Below, one piece after another: positions 802 through 23,872 of a stretch of DNA of 23,872 bases (position 1 is the first letter of the stretch; the number at the start of each line of letters is the position of its first letter). Made by a program: the position numbers and the translations under genes. Under the pieces are notes generated by a model, which searched no databases, had not been told where the DNA came from, and saw nothing but the letters and a program-made list of their open reading frames with translations. Origin of the DNA: a virus; the IMG/VR virus record IMGVR_UViG_3300043446_001894, positions 1 to 23,872 of that record. One strand, written 5' to 3'.

Positions 802-1047
802 TTAGTAAGTCCACCATCTTATTTCTTCCCAAACAATTTGATCATACTCTTCATCTGTATATTCTCTGTTCCACCATTTATCATCAACTGGAACTACTGG
901 TGGATCATCCTCACAAAAATAAACCGATGTATTGTCATCTAAAACTTCTTCTACAATGGCGGTAGGACATCTATCCCACCACATTTGTTCATTTGAAACA
1001 GGATCAACAGGACCAATTAACGCTATAAGTAATAAAAAGATTTCCAT
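802..1047 (-). CDS. Trp-rich acidic protein with hydrophobic N-terminus, 81 aa, leaderless
   Basis: The chosen start is ATG 1047-1045 rather than the upstream in-frame ATG at 1071. A -10 hexamer TATACT lies exactly 6 nt before it and a TTGCTT box 17 bp further upstream, so the transcript should start at this ATG. Residues 1-12 are hydrophobic (MEIFLLLIALIG), a possible short membrane anchor or signal. The remainder is acidic and unusually rich in Trp (WW at three places) with two Cys. Function unknown. Confidence 0.65.
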   Translation of the reverse strand: MEIFLLLIALIGPVDPVSNEQMWWDRCPTAIVEEVLDDNTSVYFCEDDPPVVPVDDKWWNREYTDEEYDQIVWEEIRWWTY

Positions 1048-1053
1048 GTAAAA

Positions 1054-1082
1054 AGTATATCGTATGCTCAATCAAAAAGCAA
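1054..1082 (-). promoter_or_regulatory. SigA-like leaderless promoter for the gene at 1047
   Basis: On the minus strand: TTGCTT (1082-1077), 17-bp spacer, TATACT (1059-1054), then 6 nt to the ATG. There is no room for a ribosome-binding site. Confidence 0.6.
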
Positions 1083-1085
1083 GTG

Positions 1086-1529
1086 TTATTCTGATATGTA
1101 AGAAAAAGACATATGAAATTTATCTTCTGTGTTTGGGTTAAATGGAGTATTGTAGTCCATTGGTTCATCATTTCCAGAACCTGCATGTTGCCATAAGGTC
1201 ATTATTGTACTAGATGGAGTTAGGTGTCCTTTTAAACTATAATGTCTTAATGTTGGTAGTGTATCGTGTGCAGAACCACCATAAACATCAGTATGATATT
1301 TTGATGCAAATGGAAGTGTAAGGTTATACTGACCAGTTCCAAAGTTTGTTACTGTTGTATAAAGAACATCAATTTGAACTATTATAAAATTTCCAATTTT
1401 AATATATGAACCAGTTGTTGGAGTTCCAGTATATGCAAGACCAGTGCCAGACCAAGTTGGGTTATAGGAATATATTGTTGTTGTTAATCCGCCTACATCT
1501 CCAAAAGATGGATGGGTAAATCTTGCCAT
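1086..1529 (-). CDS. Putative fibre-head / minor virion protein, 147 aa
   Basis: The protein is rich in Gly, Thr, Ser, Tyr and Asn with alternating beta-type sequence. The segment around residues 24-75 (SGTGLAYTGTPTTGSY, then IKIGNFIIVQ and FGTGQYNLTLPF) is of a kind common in small beta-sandwich fibre or head-decoration proteins of environmental phages. There is no signal peptide or membrane span. The start ATG overlaps the TAA of the preceding gene (TAATG), so it is coupled to the 92-aa protein at 1529-1807, which is probably another virion component. A receptor-binding or decoration role is inferred from composition only. Confidence 0.7.
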   Translation of the reverse strand: MARFTHPSFGDVGGLTTTIYSYNPTWSGTGLAYTGTPTTGSYIKIGNFIIVQIDVLYTTVTNFGTGQYNLTLPFASKYHTDVYGGSAHDTLPTLRHYSLKGHLTPSSTIMTLWQHAGSGNDEPMDYNTPFNPNTEDKFHMSFSYISE

Positions 1530-1807
1530 TACATCAACTCAACGCCAGTCCATAAAACTGCTGCTTGTGCTCCATTAACATTGGAAATTGCATACAGTGG
1601 ATCTCTTCCAGGAAGTTCTATTGACCAAGAATGGTTTGGCAAAATTCTAAATCCATAATTTGTTGTGCTTACTCCAGGACCACCTAAATAAACATATGCA
1701 GCAGTATTGACATTTTGAACAGTTATATCCATGCCAGTATGATAACCTTCTGGCGTTAATCTTGTAGCAGTAATATTACTTAAAGTAGTGAGAACGTGGG
1801 TAGTCAT
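1529..1807 (-). CDS. Putative minor virion protein, 92 aa, leaderless
   Basis: The start is set at ATG 1807, because TGTTATAAT stands exactly 6 nt upstream (1822-1814); an upstream extension to 1855 would run through the promoter. The product is beta-rich (Thr, Asn, Val, Gly), with YVYLGGPGVSTTNYG and a PGRDPLYAISN loop. It resembles small phage proteins found next to fibre or head-decoration genes that carry a variable surface role. Its stop overlaps the next ATG (TAATG). Confidence 0.7.
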   Translation of the reverse strand: MTTHVLTTLSNITATRLTPEGYHTGMDITVQNVNTAAYVYLGGPGVSTTNYGFRILPNHSWSIELPGRDPLYAISNVNGAQAAVLWTGVELM

Positions 1808-1813
1808 ATAGTT

Positions 1814-1822
1814 ATTATAACA
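1814..1822 (-). promoter_or_regulatory. Extended -10 leaderless promoter TGTTATAAT
   Basis: TGTTATAAT reads leftward, with 6 nt between the hexamer and the ATG at 1807. It overlaps the stop region of the upstream 57-aa gene. No -35 box at 17 bp. Confidence 0.7.
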
Positions 1823-1823
1823 T

Positions 1824-1997
1824 CTAATAGTGTAAACTAATCCAAAAATATCCAAGATCTAATACTGCGTAGTGTTTACTTATCTCAAACCCAACGGCAA
1901 ATCTGGAAAAAGAATAGTTCATCGTAATGTTAAATCTAATACCTCTACGCCTGCTAGTTTCTCTTGGCAACCTTGGTCGTATTGCATTGTTTGTCAT
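1824..1997 (-). CDS. Hypothetical protein, 57 aa
   Basis: ATG at 1997-1995 to TAG at 1826-1824. The N-terminus is basic (many Arg in residues 7-19), followed by aromatic, beta-like sequence. It starts 7 nt after the stop of the 25-aa membrane peptide, in the same leftward unit as 2082-2219. No family is recognised. The continuous spacing with its neighbours and the absence of stops support it as a gene. Confidence 0.55.
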   Translation of the reverse strand: MTNNAIRPRLPRETSRRRGIRFNITMNYSFSRFAVGFEISKHYAVLDLGYFWISLHY

Positions 1998-2004
1998 ATT
2001 AATC

Positions 2005-2082
2005 CTAAAAAAACTTAAACATTATTCCAACAAATGTACCAATAAGAAGTCCCCAAGCAACAAATAAAAATAAATCTGCCAT
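2005..2082 (-). CDS. Single-span membrane peptide, 25 aa
   Basis: ATG at 2082 shares its A with the stop TAA of the preceding gene (TAATG), a junction repeated many times in this window. The 25 residues are almost entirely a membrane span (LFLFVAWGLLIGTFVGIMF) ending in KFF. Tiny membrane peptides like this are common in actinophage small-gene arrays. Function unknown; a lysis or envelope role is only a guess. Confidence 0.5.
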   Translation of the reverse strand: MADLFLFVAWGLLIGTFVGIMFKFF

Positions 2083-2219
2083 TATGGTGCATATGTTTTA
2101 AGATGGCACTTACACACATCTATTACTGCAAACATACCCTTCTCATTTAGCCCTAGATCAGTGTAGATTGCAGGCTTATCGCAATAAACACAAACATCCT
2201 TTTTATCTAAAGTTTCCAT
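2082..2219 (-). CDS. Small zinc-ribbon-like protein, 45 aa, leaderless
   Basis: ATG at 2219 lies exactly 6 nt after TATAAT (2231-2226), with TGG in front of the hexamer. The protein carries a CVYC pair near residue 10 and a CKCH cluster near residue 37, spacing suited to one structural zinc. It heads a TAATG-coupled set with the 25-aa membrane peptide and the 57-aa protein. A nucleic-acid or protein adaptor role is inferred from the Cys pattern only. Confidence 0.65.
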   Translation of the reverse strand: METLDKKDVCVYCDKPAIYTDLGLNEKGMFAVIDVCKCHLKTYAP

Positions 2220-2225
2220 ACTTAC

Positions 2226-2234
2226 ATTATACCA
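2226..2234 (-). promoter_or_regulatory. Extended -10 leaderless promoter TGGTATAAT
   Basis: TGGTATAAT reads leftward and ends 6 nt before the ATG at 2219. It abuts the stop codon of the upstream gene (2235). Confidence 0.65.
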
Positions 2235-2435
2235 TTAAGGATTTGCAGGCCGTCTTCCCTTTGGTATAATTCGATACCCTTCTTGGTCAAGGGATTCTAA
2301 AATGGTGTTCGTAATCTTTTCATAATCCATTTCTATAATAGAATTATCATCGTCTATTTTATGAAAAGTAACACTATCTGAAAATGAGTCCTGCAACGCC
2401 ACAAAAATTAAATCTTTTATGGGGTTCTTTGACAT
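2235..2435 (-). CDS. Hypothetical acidic protein, 66 aa, leaderless
   Basis: ATG at 2435, with TGTTATAAT (2450-2442) ending 6 nt upstream, so translation probably starts on a leaderless mRNA. The protein is acidic in the middle (KIDDDNSIIEMDYEKI) and ends in a basic, Pro-rich tail (RIIPKGRRPANP). No family is recognised. Confidence 0.6.
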   Translation of the reverse strand: MSKNPIKDLIFVALQDSFSDSVTFHKIDDDNSIIEMDYEKITNTILESLDQEGYRIIPKGRRPANP

Positions 2436-2441
2436 AGTTTT

Positions 2442-2450
2442 ATTATAACA
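2442..2450 (-). promoter_or_regulatory. Extended -10 leaderless promoter TGTTATAAT
   Basis: TGTTATAAT reads leftward, 6 nt before the ATG at 2435. There is no TTGACA-like box at 17 bp. Confidence 0.65.
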
Positions 2451-2514
2451 TTTTGTTTGTTTTTAAGTTCGGCGGTAAATAGAAATACAAACACCCCTAT
2501 GCTCTACACGAGCA

Positions 2515-2733
2515 CTATCTGTTAGTATTCTCACTTTGCCATACATCTCCACAATCTATACACATAATACCTGGATCTCTCATATAGTACCTATGTTCAT
2601 GAATATTTTCTCCTCTTAGTTTTCTTTGAAACTTGCCTTCTGGCTTATGAATATGGCATAGAGTGTCTTGATTGTTTACAAGAATAGTACATCTTTGATT
2701 ATTGTTTTTGGTAGCGGTACATTGTGAAAGCAT
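2515..2733 (-). CDS. Cys/His-rich zinc-binding protein, 72 aa, leaderless
   Basis: ATG at 2733 sits 6 nt after a -10 (TATCCT) that has a TTGACT box 17 bp upstream. The Cys/His layout is C5, C15, C26-x-x-H29 in the first half, with His residues near 45-47 and a CIDC pair near residues 58-61 in the second. The N-terminal pattern (CTATKNNNQRC ... CHIH) resembles the small DUF5763-type zinc modules in phage proteins; the C-terminal HEHRYY ... CIDCGDVW looks like a second zinc knuckle. Likely a small regulator or adaptor. It is the first leftward gene after the noncoding region 2746-3283. Confidence 0.7.
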   Translation of the reverse strand: MLSQCTATKNNNQRCTILVNNQDTLCHIHKPEGKFQRKLRGENIHEHRYYMRDPGIMCIDCGDVWQSENTNR

Positions 2734-2739
2734 ATAACC

Positions 2740-2768
2740 AGGATATCAAAAAATCGGGGGGAAGTCAA
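2740..2768 (-). promoter_or_regulatory. SigA-like promoter driving a leaderless start at 2733
   Basis: TTGACT (2768-2763), 17-bp spacer, TATCCT (2745-2740), then 6 nt to the ATG. It combines a strong -35 with leaderless spacing. Confidence 0.65.
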
Positions 2769-3283
2769 GAGTTATAGACAATAACCCCTATAGTACAAAC
2801 AATGTATCCAAGTATGGCCAGATATAGATTTATGTGTTTGGACATATGGCGCATATATCAATTATATAAGATGTTTGGCCAAATGATCCATCAAGAAGGA
2901 TGTTTATATACCCTGGCAAATAGGCGTATATGGCTTTTAAAGTGTATCTGGATAGGAGTGTTTGGAATGAATTAAATATTACTGATATTTTTTAGATATG
3001 ACTGTTTGTGGAGTGAAGTGGATGAAAGTGGAGAATAGAACGTTTTTCTTGTGGTGGTCGTAATGTCCAAACACTATATCTAGTATATCCCCAAACATTT
3101 ATATCCCCAAACACCCATATCATATGTTTGAATGTTTGTCAAATCGCCAAACAAACATAACAATTTGATAACTTTATTTCCAGGATTTTTCTACGAATTT
3201 CGTAATAAAATAAAATAAAAGAATATAAATGTTTGATAATCAGGGAAAAAGTTTTATATTTCGTAATGTTTTATATAGGGGTA
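2746..3283. other. Noncoding region rich in TGTTTGG/CCAAACA repeats (candidate origin or control region)
   Basis: There is no convincing ORF on either strand over about 540 bases. The region holds many copies of TGTTTG or its complement. A perfect 12-bp inverted pair, GTGTTTGGACAT (2834-2845) and ATGTCCAAACAC (3063-3074), is present. Two direct copies of TATATCCCCAAACA start 16 bp apart at 3084 and 3100, and TTTGGCCAAA forms a palindrome near 2874. Further TGTTTG copies continue to about 3820, and at 5967 and 6519. Iterons, a partition site or a repressor array are all possible; nothing here decides between them. Confidence 0.5.
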
Positions 3284-3565
3284 TTATTGATTAGATTGTT
3301 TGGATCCCCGCCGTTTTTCGCGGAGGGCTTTTAGATCAATCTCATCACCAGACGTGGCTTGGTAAGGTAGGCTCTCAGTCTTTCTGGAGATTTTGTCGGG
3401 GGATTTAATGAATGCTACTAACTTACTAATACCAGTATACTTAAGTACATAGAATGAAGCCTTCTCAAACTTAGTCTTTGGCTTTGATGGAAGATCATTT
3501 ATAAAATGTCTATTGGATAGATAATAAGGACCATATATTGCTCTTACAAAATGTCTTGGACTCAT
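3284..3565 (-). CDS. Hypothetical basic protein, 93 aa, leaderless
   Basis: ATG at 3565 follows TGTTATAAT (3580-3572) with exactly 6 nt between. The product is Lys/Arg-rich, with aromatic N-terminal sequence (FVRAIYGPYYLSNRHF), a middle helix, and a charged C-terminus (LKALREKRRGSKQ). No motif is recognised. The basic charge would suit nucleic-acid binding. It lies between two noncoding regions and appears to be a single-gene unit. Confidence 0.65.
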   Translation of the reverse strand: MSPRHFVRAIYGPYYLSNRHFINDLPSKPKTKFEKASFYVLKYTGISKLVAFIKSPDKISRKTESLPYQATSGDEIDLKALREKRRGSKQSNQ

Positions 3566-3571
3566 ATATGT

Positions 3572-3580
3572 ATTATAACA
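3572..3580 (-). promoter_or_regulatory. Extended -10 leaderless promoter TGTTATAAT
   Basis: TGTTATAAT reads leftward, 6 nt before the ATG at 3565. A TTGACA lies 23 bp from the hexamer, too far for normal spacing. Confidence 0.65.
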
Positions 3581-3704
3581 TTGTTTGATAATATAATGTT
3601 TGTCAAACTTTCTGCGATTTTTTTAATTCTTTCGTAATAAAGTTTTTGGGGGAAATATTGTTTGTTCGTAAATGTCTGGTTTGATATGTTTTGTACCCGG
3701 CCCG

Positions 3705-3757
3705 CAAAAGAAAAAGGACCTAGCGACTGCAGGGACTAGATCCTTATTTTTCTTTTG
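3705..3757 (-). terminator. Hairpin terminator, probably bidirectional
   Basis: Arms 3705-3723 and 3736-3757 pair over 19 bp (one G-U on the minus strand, one 3-nt bulge). The minus-strand 3' arm contains TTTTTCTTTT. It also closes the leftward gene at 3831-4055. Confidence 0.65.
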
Positions 3758-3783
3758 AGAGAAAGTGTAGAGTGAATAACTAC
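3705..3783 (-). ncRNA. Candidate small RNA: strong promoter followed by a long hairpin
   Basis: A near-consensus leftward promoter (3813-3818 and 3790-3795) predicts a start near 3783. About 25 nt later comes a 19-bp stem formed by 3705-3723 and 3736-3757, with a 3-nt bulge and a 12-nt loop. Its descending arm is U-rich on the minus strand, so it can act as an intrinsic terminator; the symmetry would allow termination from both sides. No credible ORF fits between promoter and hairpin. The result would be a free RNA of about 80 nt. Alternatively it is a terminated leader. Confidence 0.55.
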
Positions 3784-3789
3784 TATACC

Positions 3790-3818
3790 AGTATACACTG
3801 ATCAAACAACTTTGTCAA
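3790..3818 (-). promoter_or_regulatory. Near-consensus SigA promoter
   Basis: TTGACA (3818-3813), 17-bp spacer, TATACT (3795-3790), reading leftward into the hairpin at 3705-3757. Confidence 0.75.
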
Positions 3819-3830
3819 ACACCATTATTC

Positions 3831-4055
3831 TTATTGGAATAGATATCCACGATTATCTCTCCCTAGCCTTTGGTTTTCTTGTTTGATTGCTTCTTGCTCT
3901 GCCGAATCTATAACTGTGATAATACGATTATATGCTAATCTAGGCAATCTCGCAACATATACACCAACTGAATCTAAATCTAATTCAGGGTCTTGTACGA
4001 GTTTGCTCATTTGTTGAGCAACTTGTTCTTGTTTGTTTATTCTATATAAGCGCAT
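3831..4055 (-). CDS. Hypothetical helical protein, 74 aa
   Basis: ATG at 4055 is preceded by GAGGAGAGAT, a good Shine-Dalgarno. The product begins MRLYRINKQEQ and is largely helical, charged, with a Gln-rich N-terminal segment (EQVAQQMSKL) and a C-terminal QENQRLGRDNRGYL. No family is recognised. Its promoter sits inside the terminator region of the upstream 54-aa gene, and it ends just before the candidate small-RNA unit. Confidence 0.7.
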   Translation of the reverse strand: MRLYRINKQEQVAQQMSKLVQDPELDLDSVGVYVARLPRLAYNRIITVIDSAEQEAIKQENQRLGRDNRGYLFQ

Positions 4056-4071
4056 ATCTCTCCTCTATTGA

Positions 4072-4100
4072 ATTGTACCCGAAAATTTAGAAGAGCGCAA
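4072..4100 (-). promoter_or_regulatory. Promoter whose -35 lies in a hairpin arm
   Basis: TTGCGC (4100-4095), 17-bp spacer, TACAAT (4077-4072), reading leftward to the gene at 4055. The -35 hexamer is part of the 12-bp stem at 4093-4124. Confidence 0.6.
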
Positions 4101-4163
4101 GTCCCGTGGAAAGGACCTGCGCTCCAGTGCGGGATAGGGCGGAACCCCTTCCGCTATCCCTGC
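4093..4163 (-). terminator. Two strong consecutive hairpins after the 54-aa gene
   Basis: Hairpin A (4129-4163) begins 1-2 nt after the stop codon. Its inner stem GCGGAA/TTCCGC and outer stem GGGATA/TATCCC are separated by a small bulge. Hairpin B pairs 4093-4104 with 4113-4124 (12 bp, one G-U) and is followed on the minus strand by a loose U-rich stretch. Together they should stop or stabilise the leftward transcript. Confidence 0.6.
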
Positions 4164-4164
4164 A

Positions 4165-4329
4165 TTAGCGTGAGCCTACCCGTTGACCACGCTTTAAGGA
4201 TGAAAGGGAGACGTTGTCTACAAACCTTCCATTCTTTCTTAGTACTACACGCTCAGAGAGACCATAGCGTGTATCCCAAGTCTCTAGGTATGGGATTGTC
4301 TTAGGTTTTGTCTTCTTCTTTGCTGCCAT
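4165..4329 (-). CDS. Small basic protein, 54 aa
   Basis: ATG at 4329-4327 to TAA at 4167-4165. It has a canonical leader of this phage (GAAAGGAACC about 8 nt upstream) and a consensus promoter just before. The N-terminus is Lys-rich (MAAKKKTKPK), followed by a compact Tyr/Trp/Arg-containing segment (YLETWDTRYGLSERVVLRK) and a basic C-terminus. Likely a nucleic-acid-binding or host-takeover micro-protein; no family is recognised. The gene is followed at once by two strong hairpins. Confidence 0.7.
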   Translation of the reverse strand: MAAKKKTKPKTIPYLETWDTRYGLSERVVLRKNGRFVDNVSLSSLKRGQRVGSR

Positions 4330-4373
4330 TGTGGTGGTTCCTTTCGATAGTTAGTTAGGGTTTTCCTTATTCA

Positions 4374-4402
4374 ATTGTACCAGTGCCCTGGCTGTTTGTC
4401 AA
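4374..4402 (-). promoter_or_regulatory. Consensus SigA promoter for the 54-aa gene
   Basis: TTGACA (4402-4397), 17-bp spacer, TACAAT (4379-4374), reading leftward. The predicted leader is about 40 nt with an AAAGGAA ribosome-binding site. Confidence 0.75.
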
Positions 4403-4405
4403 GAT

Positions 4406-4756
4406 CTACGCAGGCTGCTTAGATCCATAGAATGATATCCAGTCTTCAAATGAATGCCATTCCTCTCCATTACCAACAGTAAAGTTAGTAAAGTCTATAA
4501 TGATTGGGTGGTCCATGAATCCAAGGTCATTTGGGTCGCAGGGATAAATTCCAAATCCTGTTTCTCCCATAACATCATACTGAATCATATAAGATATAAA
4601 CATACGTGTTGCGTATGATGTGTCACCATACCGTGGCTTGCAATGTGCCAGGGCACCAGCAATGTCACGATTCATAGAGTCTTCACCCCAGTGACTATAT
4701 AAAGCAATCGCATTATTCTTGTCATGTTTTAAAACAAATGTACAACGTGCTCCCAT
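4406..4756 (-). CDS. Conserved-type phage hypothetical, 116 aa
   Basis: ATG at 4756 overlaps the stop of the upstream gene (TAATG). The start MGARCTFVLKHD followed by IALYSHWGED resembles a recurrent small phage family that begins with a 'GxRxxxxxxD ... LYxHWxG' pattern. The remainder holds an acidic loop and aromatic C-terminus (HSFEDWISFYG). The biochemical role of that family is unknown to me. Last gene of the leftward operon that begins at 5895. Confidence 0.7.
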   Translation of the reverse strand: MGARCTFVLKHDKNNAIALYSHWGEDSMNRDIAGALAHCKPRYGDTSYATRMFISYMIQYDVMGETGFGIYPCDPNDLGFMDHPIIIDFTNFTVGNGEEWHSFEDWISFYGSKQPA

Positions 4757-5013
4757 TATTTTTCCTCTCTAGCAAATGATAGTTTGTAGGTAAGGGCATA
4801 CACAATGGATAGAGCGTCTAACTGACCCTCCCAATATTTGCGTTCCATAGAATCCATTGCTTCTTCAGTGCGCTCCTCTTCCTCTATGGCTGCCTCTAAT
4901 TCTGCCTCGGCTTCAACCATTAGATTTTTAAGTTCGCCATGCATGATATCCAATGAATCAATTCCATTGTCTATAAGTTTTTGCAAGCGTGGGCTTATGT
5001 TTAGGTCTCTCAT
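4756..5013 (-). CDS. Acidic coiled-coil protein, 85 aa
   Basis: ATG at 5013 has GGAGAGAT immediately upstream. Residues about 25-60 are strongly acidic and heptad-like (many Glu and Ala), predicting a coiled coil, followed by a mixed segment with YWEGQLDALSIVYALTYKL. No family is recognised. It lies between 5022-5252 and 4406-4756 in one tightly packed leftward operon. Confidence 0.7.
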   Translation of the reverse strand: MRDLNISPRLQKLIDNGIDSLDIMHGELKNLMVEAEAELEAAIEEEERTEEAMDSMERKYWEGQLDALSIVYALTYKLSFAREEK

Positions 5014-5021
5014 ATCTCTCC

Positions 5022-5252
5022 TTAGTAGGGTTTCTCTAGTATATCGTGAGCCACTGACAATATGTGCGAGGTGGCCATAAGTTCCCCAGTATTATAATGG
5101 TCATCAAGTACTAGGTTCTCATACTCCTCTGAATCATAATCGCCTTCAAAATTACGCTTTAGTTCTTCTAGTCTATCTGCATCTTGTTCTAAACTAATTT
5201 TATGTAGTTTGAGATATTCTAAAAGCATAATCATTTTTACATCAGATGTCAT
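5022..5252 (-). CDS. Hypothetical helical protein, 76 aa
   Basis: ATG at 5252 overlaps the 3' end of the Api92-like gene by 11 nt, consistent with coupling. The sequence is helical, with LEYLKLHKISLEQDADRLEE near residues 11-31 and an acidic middle. The C-terminus (TSHILSVAHDILEKPY) is His-containing. No recognised motif. Confidence 0.7.
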   Translation of the reverse strand: MTSDVKMIMLLEYLKLHKISLEQDADRLEELKRNFEGDYDSEEYENLVLDDHYNTGELMATSHILSVAHDILEKPY

Positions 5253-5895
5253 GTTTGCATTCTCTCTCTTCGCGGTTCATCTTACACTTCAAGCATACAC
5301 TACAACCGCAATCATCGCAATACTCCATGTTGTTAGTTTCGTCACACTCATGGCATTTGTCGTCATATTCTAGAATTGTTTTACCTTCACCGTTGATGTA
5401 TTCAACCTCGCCACCCCAACCTTGCTCTTCCTCATAATATAGTTTGAAAGTTAGGTTTGGGTGCTGCGTTGATAGTTTCTCTATAGCCTCACTAGGAGGG
5501 GACCAAGCGGTATCAAAGTTATACTGAATACCACCGTCTTTGAGTTCATCCATTGAAGTACCAAGGAATTCATTATCATCTGAAATTGCTACATCCCATT
5601 TACATCCCCAGTTACGAATGTTCCAGTCATACCAGTTATCACCTGACCAAGGAACTTTGGGGTTTGCATTTGGGTCAGACTGTTGAGCATAGGTATAAAG
5701 GTCAGTGGGACGAACTATATTCCAGAATGCAAACACAGGATTAGAATATGTAGTAGTAGACTTATCTAGTGTTTGTGTTTTAGGATTCCATGAAGTATGC
5801 TCTTTAGAAAACGGGGAATTGAGTTGAGCCTTTACAACATCTATATCTTTAGAATCACCTTTGACGGTAAGGTGGTTAAATACCCAGTTTGGCAT
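5242..5895 (-). CDS. Api92-like ferredoxin-fold protein with C-terminal zinc ribbon, 217 aa
   Basis: The start MPNWVFNHLTVKG is the hallmark of the Api92/YubB-like ferredoxin-like domain family (DUF1281), found in phages and plasmids. The Trp-rich middle (WYDWNIRNWGCKWD and NFDTAWSPPSEAI) matches the family's conserved core. After about residue 180 there is an extra Cys-rich tail (CHEC, CDDC, C-x-C, CLKC), which should bind one or two zinc ions. Family function is unknown; DNA transfer or replication contexts have been suggested elsewhere. It has its own promoter at 5923-5951 and heads the operon 4406-5895. Confidence 0.85.
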   Translation of the reverse strand: MPNWVFNHLTVKGDSKDIDVVKAQLNSPFSKEHTSWNPKTQTLDKSTTTYSNPVFAFWNIVRPTDLYTYAQQSDPNANPKVPWSGDNWYDWNIRNWGCKWDVAISDDNEFLGTSMDELKDGGIQYNFDTAWSPPSEAIEKLSTQHPNLTFKLYYEEEQGWGGEVEYINGEGKTILEYDDKCHECDETNNMEYCDDCGCSVCLKCKMNREERECKHDI

Positions 5896-5922
5896 TGGGG
5901 TCCTCTCTCTAGGGGTAATACA

Positions 5923-5951
5923 ATTATGGCATGAATAGGGGAAAAAGTCAA
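5923..5951 (-). promoter_or_regulatory. SigA-like promoter for the Api92-like operon
   Basis: TTGACT (5951-5946), 17-bp spacer, CATAAT (5928-5923), leftward. A double TGTTTG repeat lies just upstream at about 5966-5980. Confidence 0.7.
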
Positions 5952-5987
5952 GCCTTCTTAATAAAATGTTTGAATGTTTGGGTAGAT

Positions 5988-6149
5988 CTATGCAGTGAAA
6001 TGTCCCTCTGCCAATAGACCCATAAGGAAATCATGGGTCATAACTAAATAATTATGAATTGCTGGATTCTCATCTGCGTTAATTAAAAAATCAGCCTGAT
6101 ATACACCATATGTCATATCTGCTAAATCTTGCTCTGTATAACCTAGCAT
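5988..6149 (-). CDS. Small hypothetical protein of the MLGYT pair, 53 aa
   Basis: ATG at 6149 shares a TAATG junction with the upstream gene. It begins MLGYTEQDLADM, almost the same as its neighbour (MLGYTREDIINM), so the two arose by tandem duplication. The rest is acidic and helical with a hydrophobic end (LVMTHDFLMGLL). It is the last member of a three-gene leaderless micro-operon. Confidence 0.65.
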   Translation of the reverse strand: MLGYTEQDLADMTYGVYQADFLINADENPAIHNYLVMTHDFLMGLLAEGHFTA

Positions 6150-6295
6150 TATTTTACCTCATCCAATAGGTTTATAAAGAATTCATAAGCCTGAGCCAAA
6201 CCATCTTTTAAATCTTCGGGGGAATAGGTGGAATCATAAGCAATACCTATAGATTCAGCCATGTTTATAATATCTTCTCGTGTATAACCTAGCAT
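6149..6295 (-). CDS. Small hypothetical protein of the MLGYT pair, 48 aa
   Basis: ATG at 6295, stop TAA at 6151-6149; both ends form TAATG overlaps with neighbours. It begins MLGYTREDIINMAES and shares with the next gene the MLGYT-x-x-D-x-x-x-M opening and an aromatic-acidic helix. No known motif. Confidence 0.65.
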   Translation of the reverse strand: MLGYTREDIINMAESIGIAYDSTYSPEDLKDGLAQAYEFFINLLDEVK

Positions 6296-6450
6296 TATTC
6301 TCCCCAATACTCTAGTATAGTATTTAACGTGGTATGAATATTACAATCACAGTCTCCACCCATATTATCCATAAAATCCAGGTGGGAGAAATTGTCTTCG
6401 TATATAGTAGTAACTAGTTCATCTATGCTATAGGGTTTGGTAAGGGTCAT
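6295..6450 (-). CDS. Small acidic protein with CDC motif, 51 aa, leaderless
   Basis: ATG at 6450 follows TAGAAT by exactly 6 nt, with TTGACA 17 bp upstream, so the mRNA should be leaderless yet strongly transcribed. The protein is acidic with a GGDCDCNIHTT cluster that could bind metal. It heads the micro-operon 5988-6450. Confidence 0.65.
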   Translation of the reverse strand: MTLTKPYSIDELVTTIYEDNFSHLDFMDNMGGDCDCNIHTTLNTILEYWGE

Positions 6451-6456
6451 GTATTA

Positions 6457-6485
6457 ATTCTACCCTGAATATGGGAAAATGTCAA
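6457..6485 (-). promoter_or_regulatory. Consensus promoter giving a leaderless mRNA
   Basis: TTGACA (6485-6480), 17-bp spacer, TAGAAT (6462-6457), then 6 nt to the ATG at 6450. Confidence 0.7.
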
Positions 6486-6543: not shown

Positions 6544-6562
6544 TTAACGCACCAGACTGGGG

Positions 6563-6636
6563 CGATCTGGATGGGACTTGAACCCACGACCTCTACCGTG
6601 ACAGGGTAGCGTTCTAACCAACTGAACTACCAGACC
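6563..6636 (-). tRNA. tRNA-Asp (anticodon GTC)
   Basis: A full cloverleaf reads leftward. The 7-bp acceptor stem is GGTCTGG/CCAGATC (one G-U). The D arm contains AGTTCAGTTGGTTAGAAC. The anticodon stem CTACC/GGTAG carries loop CTGTCAC, giving anticodon GTC. The T arm is GTGGGTTCAAGTCCCAT, and the discriminator G73 is as expected for Asp. The 3' CCA is not encoded as such (CCC follows). It lies 36 nt after the stop of the DUF932 gene and is probably processed from that transcript. Phage tRNAs usually compensate for codon-use differences with the host. Confidence 0.95.
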
Positions 6637-6638
6637 AT

Positions 6639-6671: not shown

Positions 6672-7655
6672 TCACGCTGCTACTAAATCATTTACGATTT
6701 TTAGTAGGCGATTCTTTTCTGCATTAGTTGCAGCGTCAAATCCACTTGCTGCTGCTAACTTAGTTTCGGTGTTTCCACGATACCAGTCAATACGCTCAGT
6801 GAGAGCATTGAGTGCTCCCCACGCATTACCCGAAATCATGTGGTTGAAATCGCCAGTGTAAATATTATTGAGTTCATCAATTTTATTCTGCCAGCGAGTA
6901 AGTGCAGTTTTGCTTGAATCCTTCTCAGGCTTAGGATAAGCAGCGAGAAGAATATCATTGAATTGTTGTGCAGTGATTTCAGTCTGAATCATCTTGTTTG
7001 CCATTTTGCTAAAATCATCCATGTAGGAATTAGCAATGTTAAGTGCGGTTTTTGCAGATTGAACTTTACCGTTTGCGGTTTGAGTGTGACGAATCTTGAA
7101 TGTTTGCTTTACACTACGCAATGCAAAGTTCAAGGTATTAGCGCATACTACACGCACAGGTGTAACGCTTGCTTGAATAGACACTGAACCGTCATGTGAT
7201 GTATTGACAACTAGATAGGTGTTGATTTTATCTGATACACCATTAGGGTCTAGTACAGTTTCGCGGTCTAGCGCAAGAGAGCCAAAGACTACACGGCCTC
7301 CACGAATAGAGCCTGCGGTTTCCCAACGGCCTCCGTCTAGCATTGCATCTGCAAAATCGAATAGTTCTTCATTCTGCAAAGTATTGTAACGCTCTCCGAC
7401 AATTCCGAGAACATCATTTTGATTATCTATTACGGGATTATTTCGCACTACATAGAAATAATTTTTATCTGATGTTAGATTAGCAGGAGGGGTTACTTCT
7501 TCTAGTCTTACATTCCAGTTGCTAAGATTTGCTAAGTCTAGCATTTCTTTTGTTGTTAGTTCCTCAGTGAACACAGTTCCTAAACCATGCCATGCGGGTT
7601 CACGAAATGAGGCAAAAGAGGTTTGCCCATTGATTTGTTCTAGTTCGTGTGCCAT
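6672..7655 (-). CDS. DUF932 phage/plasmid-like protein, 327 aa
   Basis: The N-terminus has the family signature AWHGLGT near residue 20 and later NNPVIDNQNDVLGIVGERY, then TSHDGSVSIQASVTPVRVVCANTLN, the most conserved part of DUF932 (TIGR03299, phage/plasmid-like protein). Length is typical. Family function is not established; members are abundant in phages and mobile plasmids. The start ATG at 7655 has the leader AACGAAAGGA about 7 nt upstream and a clear promoter (7680-7708). A CRP-like palindrome lies upstream of that promoter. Downstream are a repeated hairpin and tRNA-Asp. Confidence 0.9.
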   Translation of the reverse strand: MAHELEQINGQTSFASFREPAWHGLGTVFTEELTTKEMLDLANLSNWNVRLEEVTPPANLTSDKNYFYVVRNNPVIDNQNDVLGIVGERYNTLQNEELFDFADAMLDGGRWETAGSIRGGRVVFGSLALDRETVLDPNGVSDKINTYLVVNTSHDGSVSIQASVTPVRVVCANTLNFALRSVKQTFKIRHTQTANGKVQSAKTALNIANSYMDDFSKMANKMIQTEITAQQFNDILLAAYPKPEKDSSKTALTRWQNKIDELNNIYTGDFNHMISGNAWGALNALTERIDWYRGNTETKLAAASGFDAATNAEKNRLLKIVNDLVAA

Positions 7656-14906: not shown

Positions 14907-14912
14907 AAATAT

Positions 14913-17013: not shown

Positions 17014-17022
17014 TGTTATAAT
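17014..17022 (+). promoter_or_regulatory. Extended -10 leaderless promoter TGTTATAAT
   Basis: Ends 6 nt before the ATG at 17029. Confidence 0.7.
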
Positions 17023-17028
17023 CTTACT

Positions 17029-17415
17029 ATGTGTGGAACATCGTCAATTAACCAAGTTGGAGCAAATCCAGTAAATATTAAATGGAAGGTTGTTCGTGGT
17101 GATACCGCCACACTTAGAGTAGATTTTCTAGAAGATGACGAAGTTACAACCATTGATATAGATGATTGGACTTTTGCTGCCACTTCATATGATGCATCTG
17201 GAGATGTGCTTGACGAATTAGCCGTTGCAAAATATGACGGATATGTAATTATTACAGCAGCAGCCGAACTTACAAAATTTTGGGGACTTGGATATAAAAC
17301 TGTTGTTGCAGACCTACCCTTTGATCTAGAAATAACAACAGATGATGATGTTGTTTGGACTCCAATTATTGGAACTATTACAGTATATAGCGATATAACT
17401 CCAGGTGCGTTATGA
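17029..17415 (+). CDS. BppU-like N-terminal-domain virion protein, 128 aa, leaderless
   Basis: The core is VNIKWKVVRGDTATLRVDF near residues 15-33, then 'IDIDDWTFAATSYD' and a closing PIIGTITVYSDI. This is the beta-sandwich pattern of the small N-terminal domain of baseplate upper proteins (BppU type). Two paralogues follow at 18257 and 22936. Likely a tail or baseplate attachment protein onto which fibre proteins dock. Its stop overlaps the next ATG (ATGA). Confidence 0.75.
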   Translation: MCGTSSINQVGANPVNIKWKVVRGDTATLRVDFLEDDEVTTIDIDDWTFAATSYDASGDVLDELAVAKYDGYVIITAAAELTKFWGLGYKTVVADLPFDLEITTDDDVVWTPIIGTITVYSDITPGAL

Positions 17416-18241: not shown

Positions 18242-18244
18242 TGG

Positions 18245-18250
18245 TATAAT
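18245..18250 (+). promoter_or_regulatory. Extended -10 (TGGTATAAT) leaderless promoter
   Basis: TATAAT with TGG in front, 6 nt before the ATG at 18257. It lies just after the collagen-like gene stop. Confidence 0.65.
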
Positions 18251-18256
18251 AAAGTC

Positions 18257-18658
18257 ATGGCATTTCCAGGTACATATAACTTTGATTACTATCGTGGTGA
18301 CACATTTAGATTTGTAGTTTCTCCAAAAGATTCTAATGGAAACGCATTAGACTTATCATCATACTTAGACGAAGAAGATGGAAGAGATGCAATTTTTACA
18401 ATTGCTGATGCTAGAGGAACCTCTGCAATATCTACATATTCTTCAATTGTTGAACTAGAAGGAAACTTTCCTTTATCAGCAACTATTGATGTTGAAAATA
18501 GTACAATCACTTGTACGATTAAACCAGATGGTGGTAGATATTTAGAAGGAGGATCTACGTACTATTATGATGTTGAAATTTATAATGGCGCAGATCTTCG
18601 CTACACATTGTTAACTGGAACAATAACTGTAGAAGACGATGTTACTGGAGCAGAATAA
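18257..18658 (+). CDS. BppU-like N-terminal-domain virion protein, 133 aa, leaderless
   Basis: It opens MAFPGTYNFDYYRGDTFRFVV with the shared (R/K)GDT motif, then 'GNALDLSSY' and a final YTLLTGTITVEDD. This is the same beta-sandwich plan as 17029 and 22936. Its TAA overlaps the ATG of the next gene (TAATG). Confidence 0.75.
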   Translation: MAFPGTYNFDYYRGDTFRFVVSPKDSNGNALDLSSYLDEEDGRDAIFTIADARGTSAISTYSSIVELEGNFPLSATIDVENSTITCTIKPDGGRYLEGGSTYYYDVEIYNGADLRYTLLTGTITVEDDVTGAE

Positions 18659-19232: not shown

Positions 19233-20009
19233 ATGGCAGCCACAAATATAGGAAGTTCTAAGTATCCCCTAGCAAAAATTCCAGCAATGGCAGATCCAGC
19301 CGATATTCAGGTTGCACTTAAATACTATCATTGGGGTCAAGAAGCAGAGCCAGAAGGAACGGCAACAGCAGGTATTGCAAAATATTTAGATGATATTGAT
19401 ACAAGAATTGATGGCATTGATACAAGTTTAGAAGGTGTTGTTCTAGAATCAGTTATAGATGCTAAAGGCGATTTATTAGTTGGAACTGCAAACGATACAG
19501 TTGATAGACTTGCTGTTGGTAGTGATGGATATTTTCTAAAGGCTAATTCTGCAGCAACTAAAGGTGTTGAATGGTCAGCATTAACATCTGCATCTACATC
19601 TGCTTCAGGCATAGTTCAACTTAACGACACTGGAACAAGCACATCAACAACACAGGCTGCAACTGCAAACTCAGTAAGGGTATTAAAACAAACAGTTGAT
19701 GCATCTGCTAAAACAGCAGACTATACAGTAGCAGCAACTGATGCAGGTAAAATAATTTTAATGAATGTTAGTTCTGGAACCTCTATTATAACAATTCCAG
19801 TAAATCCATCTGCACCAAATGATTTTCCAGACTATACAAGAATAGATATTATTCAAACTGGATCAGTTCAAACTTCAGTTGCTGCAGCAGTTGGAGTTAC
19901 ACTAAATAGTAGAAATAGTCATAAAAAACTTTCAGGACAGTATTCTGCTGCAACAATAATTAAAACGGGTGCTAACGAGTGGGTTTTAATTGGCGATTTG
20001 ACAATTTAG
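19233..20009 (+). CDS. Tail fibre protein, 258 aa
   Basis: The centre contains DAKGDLLVGTANDTVDRLAVGSDGYFL (about residues 77-103), a widespread phage fibre motif. Then SASGIVQLNDTGTSTSTTQAAT (about 124-144) matches the 'phage tail fibre repeat' type (GIVQLND ... STTxAAT). N- and C-terminal parts are beta-rich. Likely a trimeric tail or side fibre. Composition (Ala, Thr, Ser) is typical. Confidence 0.85.
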   Translation: MAATNIGSSKYPLAKIPAMADPADIQVALKYYHWGQEAEPEGTATAGIAKYLDDIDTRIDGIDTSLEGVVLESVIDAKGDLLVGTANDTVDRLAVGSDGYFLKANSAATKGVEWSALTSASTSASGIVQLNDTGTSTSTTQAATANSVRVLKQTVDASAKTADYTVAATDAGKIILMNVSSGTSIITIPVNPSAPNDFPDYTRIDIIQTGSVQTSVAAAVGVTLNSRNSHKKLSGQYSAATIIKTGANEWVLIGDLTI

Positions 20010-20018: not shown

Positions 20019-20954
20019 ATGTTTATACCATTAGGAACATTAGGAAACGTATTTACAACTATTATAGATACATTCGATCGTTCATCATTAGGAACAACAA
20101 CTACTACTGGTCATAAATTAACACAACTAAGACAGTCGTGGTCAATTCAATCCTCAAACTATGTTATATCTTCAGCAGCAGCAAATACATATCCATTATT
20201 AACTGTAGATGTAGAACAAACTGATCAAGTATCTGGAACCTATACTAGCAGATATTTAGGAAATGGTCCAGCATTTTGGGTAACAGATGCAAATAACTGG
20301 TGGGCAGCAATTAGTAATATGAGAGTTGCATTAGATAGAAATCCATATTCTTGTAATTGTTATTCATATTGTAGCAGTTATACTTGTGCATGTGGCAATG
20401 GTCGGGCAGACACAATGAATTGTTGTTGTTCTTATTCGACAACATATAGTTGTGGAAGTGGTTTTGTTGTTGGAAGTGGATGCTATCAATATACTGGGGA
20501 TGGATTTTTAGAATATCTTGGTCCAGCAACAGCATCAACTACATGTACTGGAGGATTTACTTGTGCATGTGGAAATGCAATAGCAGATAGCATGAGTTGT
20601 TGTTGTTCTGCAACAGCATGTAATACTTGTTATCAAGACTATAGTTATTATACAGAAATTAAAGTTTTACAATGTGTTGCAGGCACTGTTTCAACATACT
20701 CTACAGATATTATAGTAAATGCAACAAGTTATAATATAGATAATGTACCAAATTATATATCTGTTGTAACAAGAAATAATCAAATTACAATAAGACCATT
20801 TAATAATAGTAATGTTTTAATGGGTAGTGCTATTGTAAAAAATATATCTAATCCGACTAAAGGAAATTATGCTGGAATAGCATATGGTGGCAGTGAATAT
20901 AATCCAAACGGAGCACTTTCTTTATACTATAGTGCTGGAAGACCAACTTCTTAG
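20019..20954 (+). CDS. LamG-like virion protein with Cys-rich insertion, 311 aa
   Basis: The N-terminus (DTFDRSSLG ... WSIQSSNYVIS ... FWVTDANNWWAAISN) follows the pattern of concanavalin/LamG-like beta-sandwich domains in phage proteins. It closes at the C-terminus with NYAGIAYGGSEYN. Between them, residues about 112-204 hold 18 Cys, including two copies of a 17-residue unit starting at 121 and 180 (TCACGN-x-x-A-D-x-M-x-CCC). Disulfide- or metal-stabilised surface loops are likely. Ribosome site TTAGGAGT before ATG 20019. Confidence 0.75.
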   Translation: MFIPLGTLGNVFTTIIDTFDRSSLGTTTTTGHKLTQLRQSWSIQSSNYVISSAAANTYPLLTVDVEQTDQVSGTYTSRYLGNGPAFWVTDANNWWAAISNMRVALDRNPYSCNCYSYCSSYTCACGNGRADTMNCCCSYSTTYSCGSGFVVGSGCYQYTGDGFLEYLGPATASTTCTGGFTCACGNAIADSMSCCCSATACNTCYQDYSYYTEIKVLQCVAGTVSTYSTDIIVNATSYNIDNVPNYISVVTRNNQITIRPFNNSNVLMGSAIVKNISNPTKGNYAGIAYGGSEYNPNGALSLYYSAGRPTS

Positions 20955-21505: not shown

Positions 21506-22281
21506 TGACTAAATATTTTCATTGCGATGGCAAATCTAGGGTATATGAAAACTTTTTAACAGAAGAAGAGTGCGTTGAACTGTATAACTTTATGCATAAT
21601 TTTCCTTATGATGAACTGCAAGATTATAAAATAGCAAGATATTTTAATAAAAGACAAATTAGTAGACTTCAAATGAAAGAGCAGCCAGGTTTTGAAAATG
21701 TTATGGATCAAATTCAACCAACATTAGATAAAATTACAGAAAAATTAAAAAATATTTTAAACAAAGATGATCATGAAGATCAATGGAATGTTGGCGAATA
21801 TGTTTTAATGAGAGTTTTTAAAGATGGAATCCCTGAAGATTATAATATTAAGAATGAAGGAATGTTTATTCATGTAGACAACCATGATTGGATGGAGGGA
21901 AAAGTTTTTTGGGGAGTGGTTTTATATTTAAATGAAGATTATGATGGAGGAGAATTATTTTATCCAGAATATAATTATGAATATAAACCAAAAAGAAAAG
22001 ATTTAGTAATGCATGTTGGAGATATTTTACATGGAGTTAAAGAAGTTGTTTCTGGAGTTAGATATGCAGTTACTGTTTTGGTTAGAATTAAAGGAAAATA
22101 TAATGAAAATCCTCTTCCATTTAAAGAAGATGATACTGATGGAAGATATATTTATCCGCAAGGATATTGGGGTAAAAGAATGCCAGACGATCCAATTCAA
22201 GGAGATATAAAAGTTCCTAGATCTGATGGAACATTTGCTGCATATAATGCAAATCCAACATTATATGTACCAAAGGCTTAG
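21505..22281 (+). CDS. 2OG-Fe(II) oxygenase (prolyl-4-hydroxylase-like), 258 aa
   Basis: Start is GTG 21505 at the end of the zinc gene. The double-stranded beta-helix signature is present: H123-V-D125 (FIHVDNHDW), YLNEDYDGGELFYP near 141-154, H176 (DILHGVKEV) and R186 (SGVRYAV). These are the Fe(II) ligands HxD...H and the 2-oxoglutarate-binding Arg. Phages of aquatic bacteria often carry such enzymes; the substrate (protein, nucleic acid or glycan) cannot be inferred. The stop overlaps that of the convergent lysin gene. Confidence 0.9.
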   Translation: MTKYFHCDGKSRVYENFLTEEECVELYNFMHNFPYDELQDYKIARYFNKRQISRLQMKEQPGFENVMDQIQPTLDKITEKLKNILNKDDHEDQWNVGEYVLMRVFKDGIPEDYNIKNEGMFIHVDNHDWMEGKVFWGVVLYLNEDYDGGELFYPEYNYEYKPKRKDLVMHVGDILHGVKEVVSGVRYAVTVLVRIKGKYNENPLPFKEDDTDGRYIYPQGYWGKRMPDDPIQGDIKVPRSDGTFAAYNANPTLYVPKA

Positions 22282-22814
22282 TATCTTTCCATCCACTCTT
22301 TAGTTTTCCAGGTAATGCCCTTCCAGGCTGACCAGTCTTTTCCACCATCGCTCATATGATAAGCAATCTCTGCATTTAGAACAGGATCAAATAAGTCTTC
22401 ATTAGAGTCTAGATTAAACTTTTCTCTTCTTTCTTTACCCATTTCTCCAAGCATGTTTATTTGAAATAGGCCATAAGAGTTGTCTCCAGTTTTTCTATTA
22501 GGATTCCAAGAATTAGGGGTTCCCATAGATTCTTTCATTACCGTTGCCCAAGCAACTTTAAGGGAGTACCCTTCAAAACCTACAGCCTTTAATATCTTGA
22601 TTAACTCATCTTTTTCAAGAGGTGTTCCATATTTATATTTTTTGGTAGTTTTATTATTTTCTTCCTTAGAAACGGAAAAAACCGCTTTCGCGGTCAGATC
22701 TGCGTCATAGACGGAATTGTAATTTAAATTATTTTCAGCATTAGCAGCCGAATTAGCAAAAAATGCTATCGCTGCCACTCCTGAGAGTACGCCAATCATT
22801 GCCGATTTATTCAT
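22278..22814 (-). CDS. Secreted SLT-type muralytic enzyme (endolysin candidate), 178 aa
   Basis: The start is set at ATG 22814, with AAGGAGGAAACGATC before it; an in-frame ATG at 22838 lies upstream of the ribosome site. A signal peptide is clear: MNKSAMIGVLSGVAAIAFFANSA followed by ANA before E27. The SLT/lysozyme-like domain has TVMKES (catalytic Glu about residue 95), NSYGLFQINM (about 112-121) and NAEIAYHM. It should cleave peptidoglycan after export. It is the only leftward gene in the structural block, with its own promoter and a leader hairpin. Confidence 0.85.
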   Translation of the reverse strand: MNKSAMIGVLSGVAAIAFFANSAANAENNLNYNSVYDADLTAKAVFSVSKEENNKTTKKYKYGTPLEKDELIKILKAVGFEGYSLKVAWATVMKESMGTPNSWNPNRKTGDNSYGLFQINMLGEMGKERREKFNLDSNEDLFDPVLNAEIAYHMSDGGKDWSAWKGITWKTKEWMERY

Positions 22815-22838
22815 GATCGTTTCCTCCTTAGAAAACAA

Positions 22839-22860
22839 AACACCATTTTTTGATGGTGTT
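22839..22860 (-). terminator. Leader hairpin before the lysin gene (attenuator candidate)
   Basis: AACACCAT/ATGGTGTT (8 bp, 6-nt loop), followed on the minus strand by TTGTTTT, between the promoter and the Shine-Dalgarno of the lysin. It could end most transcripts early. Confidence 0.5.
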
Positions 22861-22867
22861 ACTCACC

Positions 22868-22897
22868 AGTATAGCATGAAATTTTATTTTTTGTCAA
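22868..22897 (-). promoter_or_regulatory. SigA-like promoter of the lysin gene
   Basis: TTGACA (22897-22892), 18-bp spacer, TATACT (22873-22868), reading leftward. Confidence 0.7.
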
Positions 22898-22920
22898 GTT
22901 TTAACGTTTTTACGTTATTG

Positions 22921-22929
22921 TGTTATAAT
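22921..22929 (+). promoter_or_regulatory. Extended -10 leaderless promoter TGTTATAAT
   Basis: TGTTATAAT ends 6 nt before the ATG at 22936. It is divergent from the lysin promoter, 25 bp away. Confidence 0.7.
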
Positions 22930-22935
22930 TCTATT

Positions 22936-23337
22936 ATGGCAAATTATAGAGGTGCTGGTCAATCTGTTTATGATATTGGTGATGCTCCACCTCTAGTAAA
23001 ATGGACAATTGTAAAAGGCGACACAGTAGCATTTAGAGTATATGTTACAGATGATGCTAAAAATCCATTAGTTATTGCAGATTGGGATATTTCTGCAGAA
23101 TTTAGAAGACCAGATACTGCAAATAATTTTGATCAAGATAGTGCTGGCACAGTATTTACTTTAACCCCTGCTCCAGACGGGGATGACGGAGATGGAGAAT
23201 TTACAGTAAAATTAACATCTAATCAATCAAATCAACTTAGAACTGGAGATGTTTTCGATATTGAACTATCTGATGCAACAAGAGTTTGGACTGTTGCAAG
23301 AGGACAAATGGTAGTTCTTGAAGACGTAACAGATTAA
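22936..23337 (+). CDS. BppU-like N-terminal-domain virion protein, 133 aa, leaderless
   Basis: The start is ATG 22936, 6 nt after TATAAT; a longer reading from 22813 would cross both promoters. It opens MANYRGAGQSVYDIGD, followed by VKWTIVKGDTVAFRVYV, the shared (R/K)GDT motif, and ends with RGQMVVLEDVTD. Third member of the family with 17029 and 18257. Its stop overlaps the next ATG (TAATG). Confidence 0.75.
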   Translation: MANYRGAGQSVYDIGDAPPLVKWTIVKGDTVAFRVYVTDDAKNPLVIADWDISAEFRRPDTANNFDQDSAGTVFTLTPAPDGDDGDGEFTVKLTSNQSNQLRTGDVFDIELSDATRVWTVARGQMVVLEDVTD

Positions 23338-23564
23338 TGGCATCTGTATCAATACAAGAAAAAACAAGGTTTAATAATTTAAATATTAATATTAAAGATT
23401 TTGCAACATCATCAATTGAAGAAAAGGTTCAAAAAAGAGTAACAATAAATGAACTTTTACCTTTTAGAATAAGAATAACTGATATAGATCTTATTGGGTT
23501 TGGAACTAACAACGTTCCACCAATTCCATTGCAGATAATTGGCTTAAGTAACTACATTTTATAA
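23337..23564 (+). CDS. Hypothetical structural-region protein, 75 aa
   Basis: ATG at 23337 is coupled to the BppU-like gene. It has a Lys/Asn-rich N-terminal half and a hydrophobic C-terminal half (FRIRITDIDLIGFGTNNVPPIP). No motif is recognised; by position likely a tail component or chaperone. Confidence 0.65.
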   Translation: MASVSIQEKTRFNNLNINIKDFATSSIEEKVQKRVTINELLPFRIRITDIDLIGFGTNNVPPIPLQIIGLSNYIL

Positions 23565-23572
23565 AATAATTA

Positions 23573-23581
23573 TGTTATAAT
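23573..23581 (+). promoter_or_regulatory. Extended -10 leaderless promoter TGTTATAAT
   Basis: The hexamer ends 6 nt before the ATG at 23588. Confidence 0.7.
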
Positions 23582-23587
23582 ATTGTC

Positions 23588-23872
23588 ATGTCCAGACTAT
23601 CACTTGCAACAGTTAAAACCAAGTTTCAAACAGGAGATCGTCCTACACAAACAGACTATGAGGATTTAATTGACTCAACATCTGCTCAGGCTACAGATCT
23701 TGGTTCATATGGTAATAATGAAAATACAATCACTGGTATTGAAAACGCTACAGTAATTGATAGTTTTTCGGCAACAGACTGGAGAATGGTTAAATACATT
23801 ATCTCAATTGCTAAAACATCAGCAGGAGATAATAAATACTATGCTACAGAAATGACCATACTTATTGACGGA
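23588..23872 (+). CDS. N-terminal part of a fibre-type protein (runs off the window)
   Basis: It opens MSRLSLATVKTKFQTGDRPTQ, then TDYEDLIDST, a pattern common at the N-terminus of phage tail-fibre proteins. 95 codons are visible without a stop. Beta-rich, Thr/Ser/Ala composition as in the other fibre genes. Leaderless by the upstream promoter. Confidence 0.7.
   Translation, partial: MSRLSLATVKTKFQTGDRPTQTDYEDLIDSTSAQATDLGSYGNNENTITGIENATVIDSFSATDWRMVKYIISIAKTSAGDNKYYATEMTILIDG

Follow-up and report, generated by a model that had tools for sequence, protein, structure and literature searches.

The window analysed here, 23.9 kb long and 36% GC, is part of a tailed-phage genome (IMGVR_UViG_3300043446_001894, virus record G000). 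In it the -10 hexamer TATAAT recurs exactly 6 nt before start codons on both strands. The best explanation, and on the sequence evidence a very probable one, is that these sites are leaderless promoters of the host RNA polymerase, with transcription from the A of the ATG. Eight copies of the extended motif TGNTATAAT-N6-ATG are found in the window; 500 dinucleotide shuffles yielded 0.06 on average and never more than 1. A search of the whole record for TGNTATAATN6ATG returned 8 matches and none to the reversed control pattern. The shorter TATAATN6ATG is found 13 times (shuffle mean 0.9, maximum 4), whereas the other 39 distances between TATAAT and ATG average 1.03 occurrences, with a largest value of 4 (binomial P = 2.5e-11 for the excess at 6 nt). 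Nine of these 13 matches open an open reading frame (ORF) of at least 40 aa and four do not. The ORFs at 2435 and 3565 were each either shortened or overlooked when genes were called by codon usage; the one at 3565 nonetheless has a relative bearing the identical promoter type.

The nine TATAAT-N6-ATG sites listed by the initial annotation are all present, at 1807, 2219, 2435 and 3565 on the reverse strand and at 14913, 17029, 18257, 22936 and 23588 on the forward strand. As it described, the 9-mer TGTTATAAT is found at six of these starts (1807, 2435, 3565, 17029, 22936, 23588) and also 9 nt before 19233, TGGTATAAT precedes 2219 and 18257, and three further genes (6450, 1047, 2733) combine a -35 element, each with a 17-nt spacer, with the same 6-nt spacing. 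Its view that the starts lack a ribosome site also held, with a 4-base Shine-Dalgarno match at 0 of 13 reported window starts. However, its statement that most sites lack a -35 is correct for the TG-containing class and fails beyond it. The uniform extended -10 cassette that it proposed gave way to two classes, TG without a -35 and TTGACA-N17 without TG, which share the 6-nt geometry and are therefore two promoter designs with one geometry. The site at 14913 has GGG (GGGTATAAT) instead of TG before the hexamer and thus has no extended -10. The sites are as follows.

1805–1822, reverse strand: TGTTATAAT-N6-ATG of the gene ending at 1529; kept in the L035 and L017 homologues (55–57% amino-acid identity)
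2217–2234, reverse strand: TGGTATAAT-N6-ATG of gene 2082–2219; TATAAT-N6-ATG kept in the L012 homologue (64% amino-acid identity)
2433–2450, reverse strand: TGTTATAAT-N6-ATG of gene 2235–2435; the homologue search found none
3563–3580, reverse strand: TGTTATAAT-N6-ATG of gene 3284–3565; kept in the L052 homologue (33% amino-acid identity)
14898–14915, forward strand: GGGTATAAT-N6-ATG, without TG, of gene 14913–15086; kept in the L048 homologue (79% amino-acid identity)
17014–17031, forward strand: TGTTATAAT-N6-ATG of gene 17029–17415, phrog_1084 family
18242–18259, forward strand: TGGTATAAT-N6-ATG of gene 18257–18658, phrog_1084 family; begins directly after the previous stop codon
19215–19235, forward strand: TGTTATAAT with 9 nt to the ATG (putative short leader) of gene 19233–20009, tail-fibre-like
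22921–22938, forward strand: TGTTATAAT-N6-ATG of gene 22936–23337, phrog_1084 family, predicted beta-sandwich, possibly tail/baseplate-like
23573–23590, forward strand: TGTTATAAT-N6-ATG of gene 23588–23872, which runs off the window end
6448–6485, reverse strand: TTGACA-N17-TAGAAT-N6-ATG of gene 6295–6450, putative leaderless -35 class; record G001 has TTGACT...TAAAAT-N6-ATG
1045–1082, reverse strand: TTGCTT-N17-TATACT-N6-ATG of gene 802–1047
2731–2768, reverse strand: TTGACT-N17-TATCCT-N6-ATG of gene 2515–2733; the weakest -10, 4/6 to TATAAT
2765–2854, reverse strand: a previously unlisted 29-aa ORF (MRHMSKHINLYLAILGYIVCTIGVIVYNS) after TATAAT-N6; candidate for a small membrane protein with a leaderless start

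Leaderless-type starts in relatives and homologues

By protein similarity, the closest cultured relatives of the window are large Streptomyces phages. The product of gene 6672–7655 is 54–55% identical over 98–99% of its length to that of gene 2 of Streptomyces phages such as Angela and Samisti12, gene 9630–10346 matches Mycobacterium and Streptomyces phages, and 25 related loci were found in IMG/VR at 53–96% identity. TGNTATAATN6ATG, far above chance in the window, is present in 19 of 23 related records (reversed control in 1 of 23); those without it are mostly of 47–50% GC.

Candidate starts were examined in six records, comprising the window and five relatives that are fragments or of unrated completeness (547 called genes, of which 441 remained to be classified after removal of redundancy). 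Exact TATAAT lies 6 nt before 48 starts, 7 nt before 7, 9 nt before 12 and at about 3 per distance elsewhere, and hexamers matching in at least 5 of 6 positions number 74 at 6 nt versus about 11 at other distances. The start codons of the 48 are 47 ATG and one TTG, with no GTG; non-ATG leaderless starts were rejected, as neither GTG nor TTG is enriched at 6 nt. Very short leaders of 1–5 nt, or use of these sites mainly within read-through mRNAs with translation mostly coupled or leadered, would be an unlikely explanation. Some sites do lie at 7–9 nt, and 18257 and 2219 start 15 nt after the preceding stop, so that a read-through mRNA is likely there as well. However, the peak falls at exactly 6 nt, distances 5 and 7 are near background, and a pyrimidine at -1 (see below) favours the A as +1. 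Within the 9-nt class, ACT or ATT precedes the ATG in 16 of 23 TGnTATAAT sites, suggesting recurrent 3-nt leaders. The ATT that lies 6 nt after the hexamer at 19233 was rejected as a start codon because Shell et al. report only ATG and GTG, and a 3-nt leader is the likelier reading.

Among the 441 genes, 60 (14%, about one in seven) have a -10 (at least 5/6) at exactly 6 nt from the ATG; a Shine-Dalgarno site (4-base match) is present in 248, and neither signal in 133. These putatively leaderless starts are thus used by a minority of genes and are a trait of the whole phage group. Bacterial RNA polymerase usually prefers to start at an A that follows a pyrimidine, and C or T occupies -1 in 55 of the 60 (92%), compared with 90 of the 248 Shine-Dalgarno genes (36%; Fisher P = 9e-16) and 38% of genes with neither signal. 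Only 6 of the 60 (10%) have a Shine-Dalgarno match. Within the 60, the mean match to the -35 consensus is 2.9/6 with TG and 4.3/6 without it; a perfect TTGACA at 16–18 nt is present in 11 of the 25 genes without TG, while no Shine-Dalgarno gene reaches 5/6 there. A same-strand stop codon lies within 14 nt upstream in 8 of 60 leaderless-type genes versus 123 of 246 Shine-Dalgarno genes. Leaderless-type genes are also slightly less folded over their first 40 nt (mean -2.6 versus -3.3 kcal/mol, P = 0.014), although this is a weak point.

As these starts had been chosen with the motif in view, the -1 test was repeated on the 204 published gene starts of Samisti12 (Stanwilliamsviridae, Boydwoodruffvirinae), taking a hexamer of 4/6 or better as -10-like. 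Sixteen starts have such a hexamer at 6 nt versus about 2 elsewhere (mostly 0–3, with isolated counts as high as 9 farther away). A pyrimidine is found at -1 in 15 of these 16 (94%) versus 46% of the other starts, a Shine-Dalgarno site in 2/16 versus 126/188, and ATG in 16/16 versus 136/188. Starts of the 6-nt type in the head/tail region include 26217, 31436, 32305 and 45591. Samisti12 resembles the window in its homologous genes, a similar block of short reverse-strand genes and the 6-nt peak, but differs in its 49% GC, its mixture of TAnnnT and TATAAT and an annotation without leaderless promoters. That the motif arose by chance in AT-rich DNA, or by duplication of a single sequence, can be given practically no weight as an explanation: whilst the 36% GC, 59 copies of TATAAT in the window and three paralogous genes would suit it, the shuffles and the Samisti12 starts refute it, spacers and flanks vary among sites, most downstream genes are unrelated and the peak persists in this 49% GC phage.

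Homologues of 23588 at 80, 75 and 54% protein identity keep TGTTATAAT or TGATATAAT and the 6-nt spacing, while the spacer bases vary (attgtc in the window; ttagac, ctaggt and cataat). The -10 and its 6 nt are likewise retained for 22936 at 45%, for 1807 at 55–57% and for 3565 at 33% protein identity. For 18257 the motif is retained at 71% identity, but the distant homologues in L024, L026 and L039 have a Shine-Dalgarno site instead (aaggagtaat, taaggagaatc, gaggagtaaag), with the -10 shifted upstream in two. For the three phrog_1084 paralogues, 80 distinct homologous starts were compared: 48 have TATAAT-N6, 14 have a Shine-Dalgarno site and none has both. Because the contigs were sampled for carrying one such site, the proportion of 48:14 is biased, but the exclusivity is unaffected. 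These patterns bear on whether the motif could be a phage regulator's binding site at gene starts and no promoter, which is very improbable. Cluster K mycobacteriophages have start-associated sequences, and the present motif recurs at gene starts genome-wide on both strands. However, it is an exact sigma70 extended -10, many sites without TG have a correctly spaced TTGACA, a pyrimidine occupies -1, motif starts lack Shine-Dalgarno sites, and homologues that lose the spacing gain one.

The wider IMG/VR collection was sampled by motif, giving 120 N6 contigs and 119 N8 control contigs among the matches listed, to which the following counts apply. Contigs listed for one TGTTATAATN6ATGGC site contain 89 further TATAATN6ATG starts versus about 9 at other distances, whereas the N8 controls contain 15 versus about 7. 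At least 3 proteins are shared with the window's group by 50/120 N6 contigs and 8/119 N8 contigs, and the motif therefore helps to recognise such phages. The remaining 70 N6 contigs show a smaller 6-nt peak (17 versus about 4), suggesting that further phage groups probably use the signal. The module 22936–23337–23588 is common to about 40 of the 120 N6 contigs.

Reader polymerase and host

Taken together, the fixed 6 nt, the pyrimidine at -1, the absence of Shine-Dalgarno sites, the trade-off between TG and -35 and the conservation or replacement in orthologues support the leaderless reading put forward in the initial annotation. From the position, statistics, conservation and exclusivity of the motif we infer where the transcripts begin, which polymerase makes them and how they are translated. 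The sites would be sigma70/sigmaA-type promoters read by the RNA polymerase of an actinobacterial host. With the hexamer 6 nt before the ATG, its A would be the first transcribed base, leaving an mRNA without a 5′ leader or Shine-Dalgarno site that would be translated by leaderless initiation from the 5′-terminal AUG. Either a TG placed one base ahead of the hexamer or a TTGACA -35 spaced by 17 nt would give the promoter its strength. Such promoters would serve mostly the first genes of transcription units, including the repeated tail/baseplate genes, and most remaining genes would have a Shine-Dalgarno site or be translationally coupled.

The simplest and likely reader is the RNA polymerase of the host, because no sigma factor was found in relatives and the motif follows the housekeeping-factor consensus. 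Models of sigma70 region 2, region 4 and sigma-ECF matched nothing in nine records, while positive controls matched; a search for T7-type RNA polymerase lacked a positive control, was void and was not used. Reading by a phage-encoded sigma factor or polymerase, with the promoters as a temporal class of their own, is distinctly improbable. A sigma-70 factor is known from isolated Planktophila phages (PMC10202952), and the sites with TG form a compact class found repeatedly in tail modules, yet the searches of the nine records, the housekeeping consensus and the identical geometry of the -35 class all argue against it.

The host is inferred to be an actinobacterium, because the kin of the window are Streptomyces and Mycobacterium phages and a gene for WhiB is present in two large relatives, of 108 kb and 124.5 kb; Kavagutti et al. 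(PMC10202952) describe this protein as exclusive to Actinobacteriota and an actinophage indicator. A tblastn search for WhiB over the motif-picked IMG/VR contigs gave no match, these contigs being short and the result uninformative. A scan of genome contigs for a host clue was set aside, its sole match being a contig of this phage group, L053, binned in a cyanobacterial metagenome-assembled genome. WhiB sits on that same phage contig, which is therefore uninformative on the host. L053 (109.9 kb, with whiB; CAINGU010000031.1) is likely mis-binned.

Several points weigh against host-read leaderless promoters. The records may be incomplete, so the absence of a sigma factor is no proof, and the identity of the host is indirect. 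Moreover, sites with 7–9 nt, such as 19233, would have leaders of 1–3 nt, and the starts of the 60-gene analysis were picked with knowledge of the motif, from which the distance counts and the Samisti12 test are free. A further proposal, that leaderless starts form a regulatory class, is doubtful. This class would include repeated tail modules with their own promoter and would be translated when Shine-Dalgarno genes are not, through late changes in ribosomes or initiation factors; orthologues would switch by exchanging -10/N6 for a Shine-Dalgarno leader.

Tail genes and other features of the window

The initial annotation labelled the genes served by these promoters as structural and accessory. 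A structural label is reasonable for those in the right half, while those in the left half are small and of no assigned role. Genes 17029, 18257 and 22936 are three diverged paralogues of phrog_1084, each with its own leaderless-type promoter. The AlphaFold model of 22936 (pLDDT 83) is a beta-sandwich whose best match among solved structures is a baseplate chain of mycobacteriophage Douge, with minor tail proteins and an LtfC/p132/Gp6 beta-sandwich protein among its viral matches. This gives only a hint of a tail/baseplate-like protein, because Ig-like folds match broadly. The product of 19233 has a tail-fibre repeat.

Further features were observed elsewhere. The interval 2800–6000 is gene-poor and contains repeated AATGTTTG/CCCCAAACATT units, mainly at 3085–3140 and 5961–5980 and in some cases beside promoters, which are possible operators. 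Overlapping -10 hexamers for the divergent genes 15871–16644 (reverse strand) and 16681–16875 (forward strand) form the palindrome ATTATAAT at 16663–16670. An inverted repeat, AACACCAT...ATGGTGTT, lies at 22835–22862 in the leader of the lysozyme-like gene 22278–22814; in L047 its arms are kept and its loop is changed. A 311-aa protein encoded at 20019–20954 has two Cys-rich repeats (TCACGNG...CCCS) and no family match. A tRNA-Asp gene is located at 6560–6637 on the reverse strand; 57 nt of it match an unannotated region of Proteus phage 10 at 96.5% identity.

Comparison with known systems

No description of a class of leaderless promoters in these phages was found in a search of the open-licence literature. 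A widespread group of large actinobacterial phages would express about one in seven of its genes without leaders, resembling what is reported for actinobacterial hosts. By the genes that it has in common with Samisti12 and its kin, the window appears to belong with Stanwilliamsviridae-like phages. Gene prediction that insists on a Shine-Dalgarno site can place leaderless starts wrongly, and a TATAAT-N6-ATG scan finds them. Since cultured Streptomyces phages carry the signal, leaderless translation during infection is directly testable.

The lambda cI mRNA is leaderless, a phage gene transcribed from its AUG. The transcription start would likewise be at the AUG here, but cI is a single gene whereas many genes are concerned in the present phages. 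The lambda origin is mentioned by Zheng et al. 2011 (PMC3160421), who describe TA-led genes of Actinobacteria and other bacteria, in which TAnnnT/TATAAT, its first T about 12 bp before the start codon, replaces the Shine-Dalgarno site; in low-GC genomes TG precedes the -10 and is said to substitute for the -35. The corresponding features are found here, namely a -10 about 12 bp upstream above shuffled expectation, the absence of Shine-Dalgarno sites and first-gene position. However, TA-led genes were described for bacterial chromosomes, whereas here a phage group has the low-GC TG form with a -35 class alongside. That leaderless genes are common in actinobacteria, as the initial annotation stated, agrees with the more than 20% of genes given for Actinobacteria (PMC3160421) and with mycobacteria, in which nearly a quarter of transcripts are leaderless, a 5′ ATG or GTG suffices, and -10 and Shine-Dalgarno sequences exclude one another ahead of the start codon (Shell et al. 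2015, PMC4633059). The mycobacterial genes also use GTG and were measured, whereas the phage starts are practically ATG only (47/48) and are predicted from sequence. In Streptomyces lividans TK24, 17% of transcripts are leaderless, with a mean distance of 6.3 nt from -10 to start, a TTGACn -35 and a TAnnnT -10 (PMC8079986); the geometry is alike, but its -10 is degenerate in a high-GC genome and the phage has the full TATAAT. Every sequence feature expected of leaderless genes is found in the phage group, which would share a host-type mode of expression, its 14% being near host-type figures. The kind of signal is already known from the TA-led leaderless genes of Actinobacteria, and its apparent group-wide use in these phages is new.

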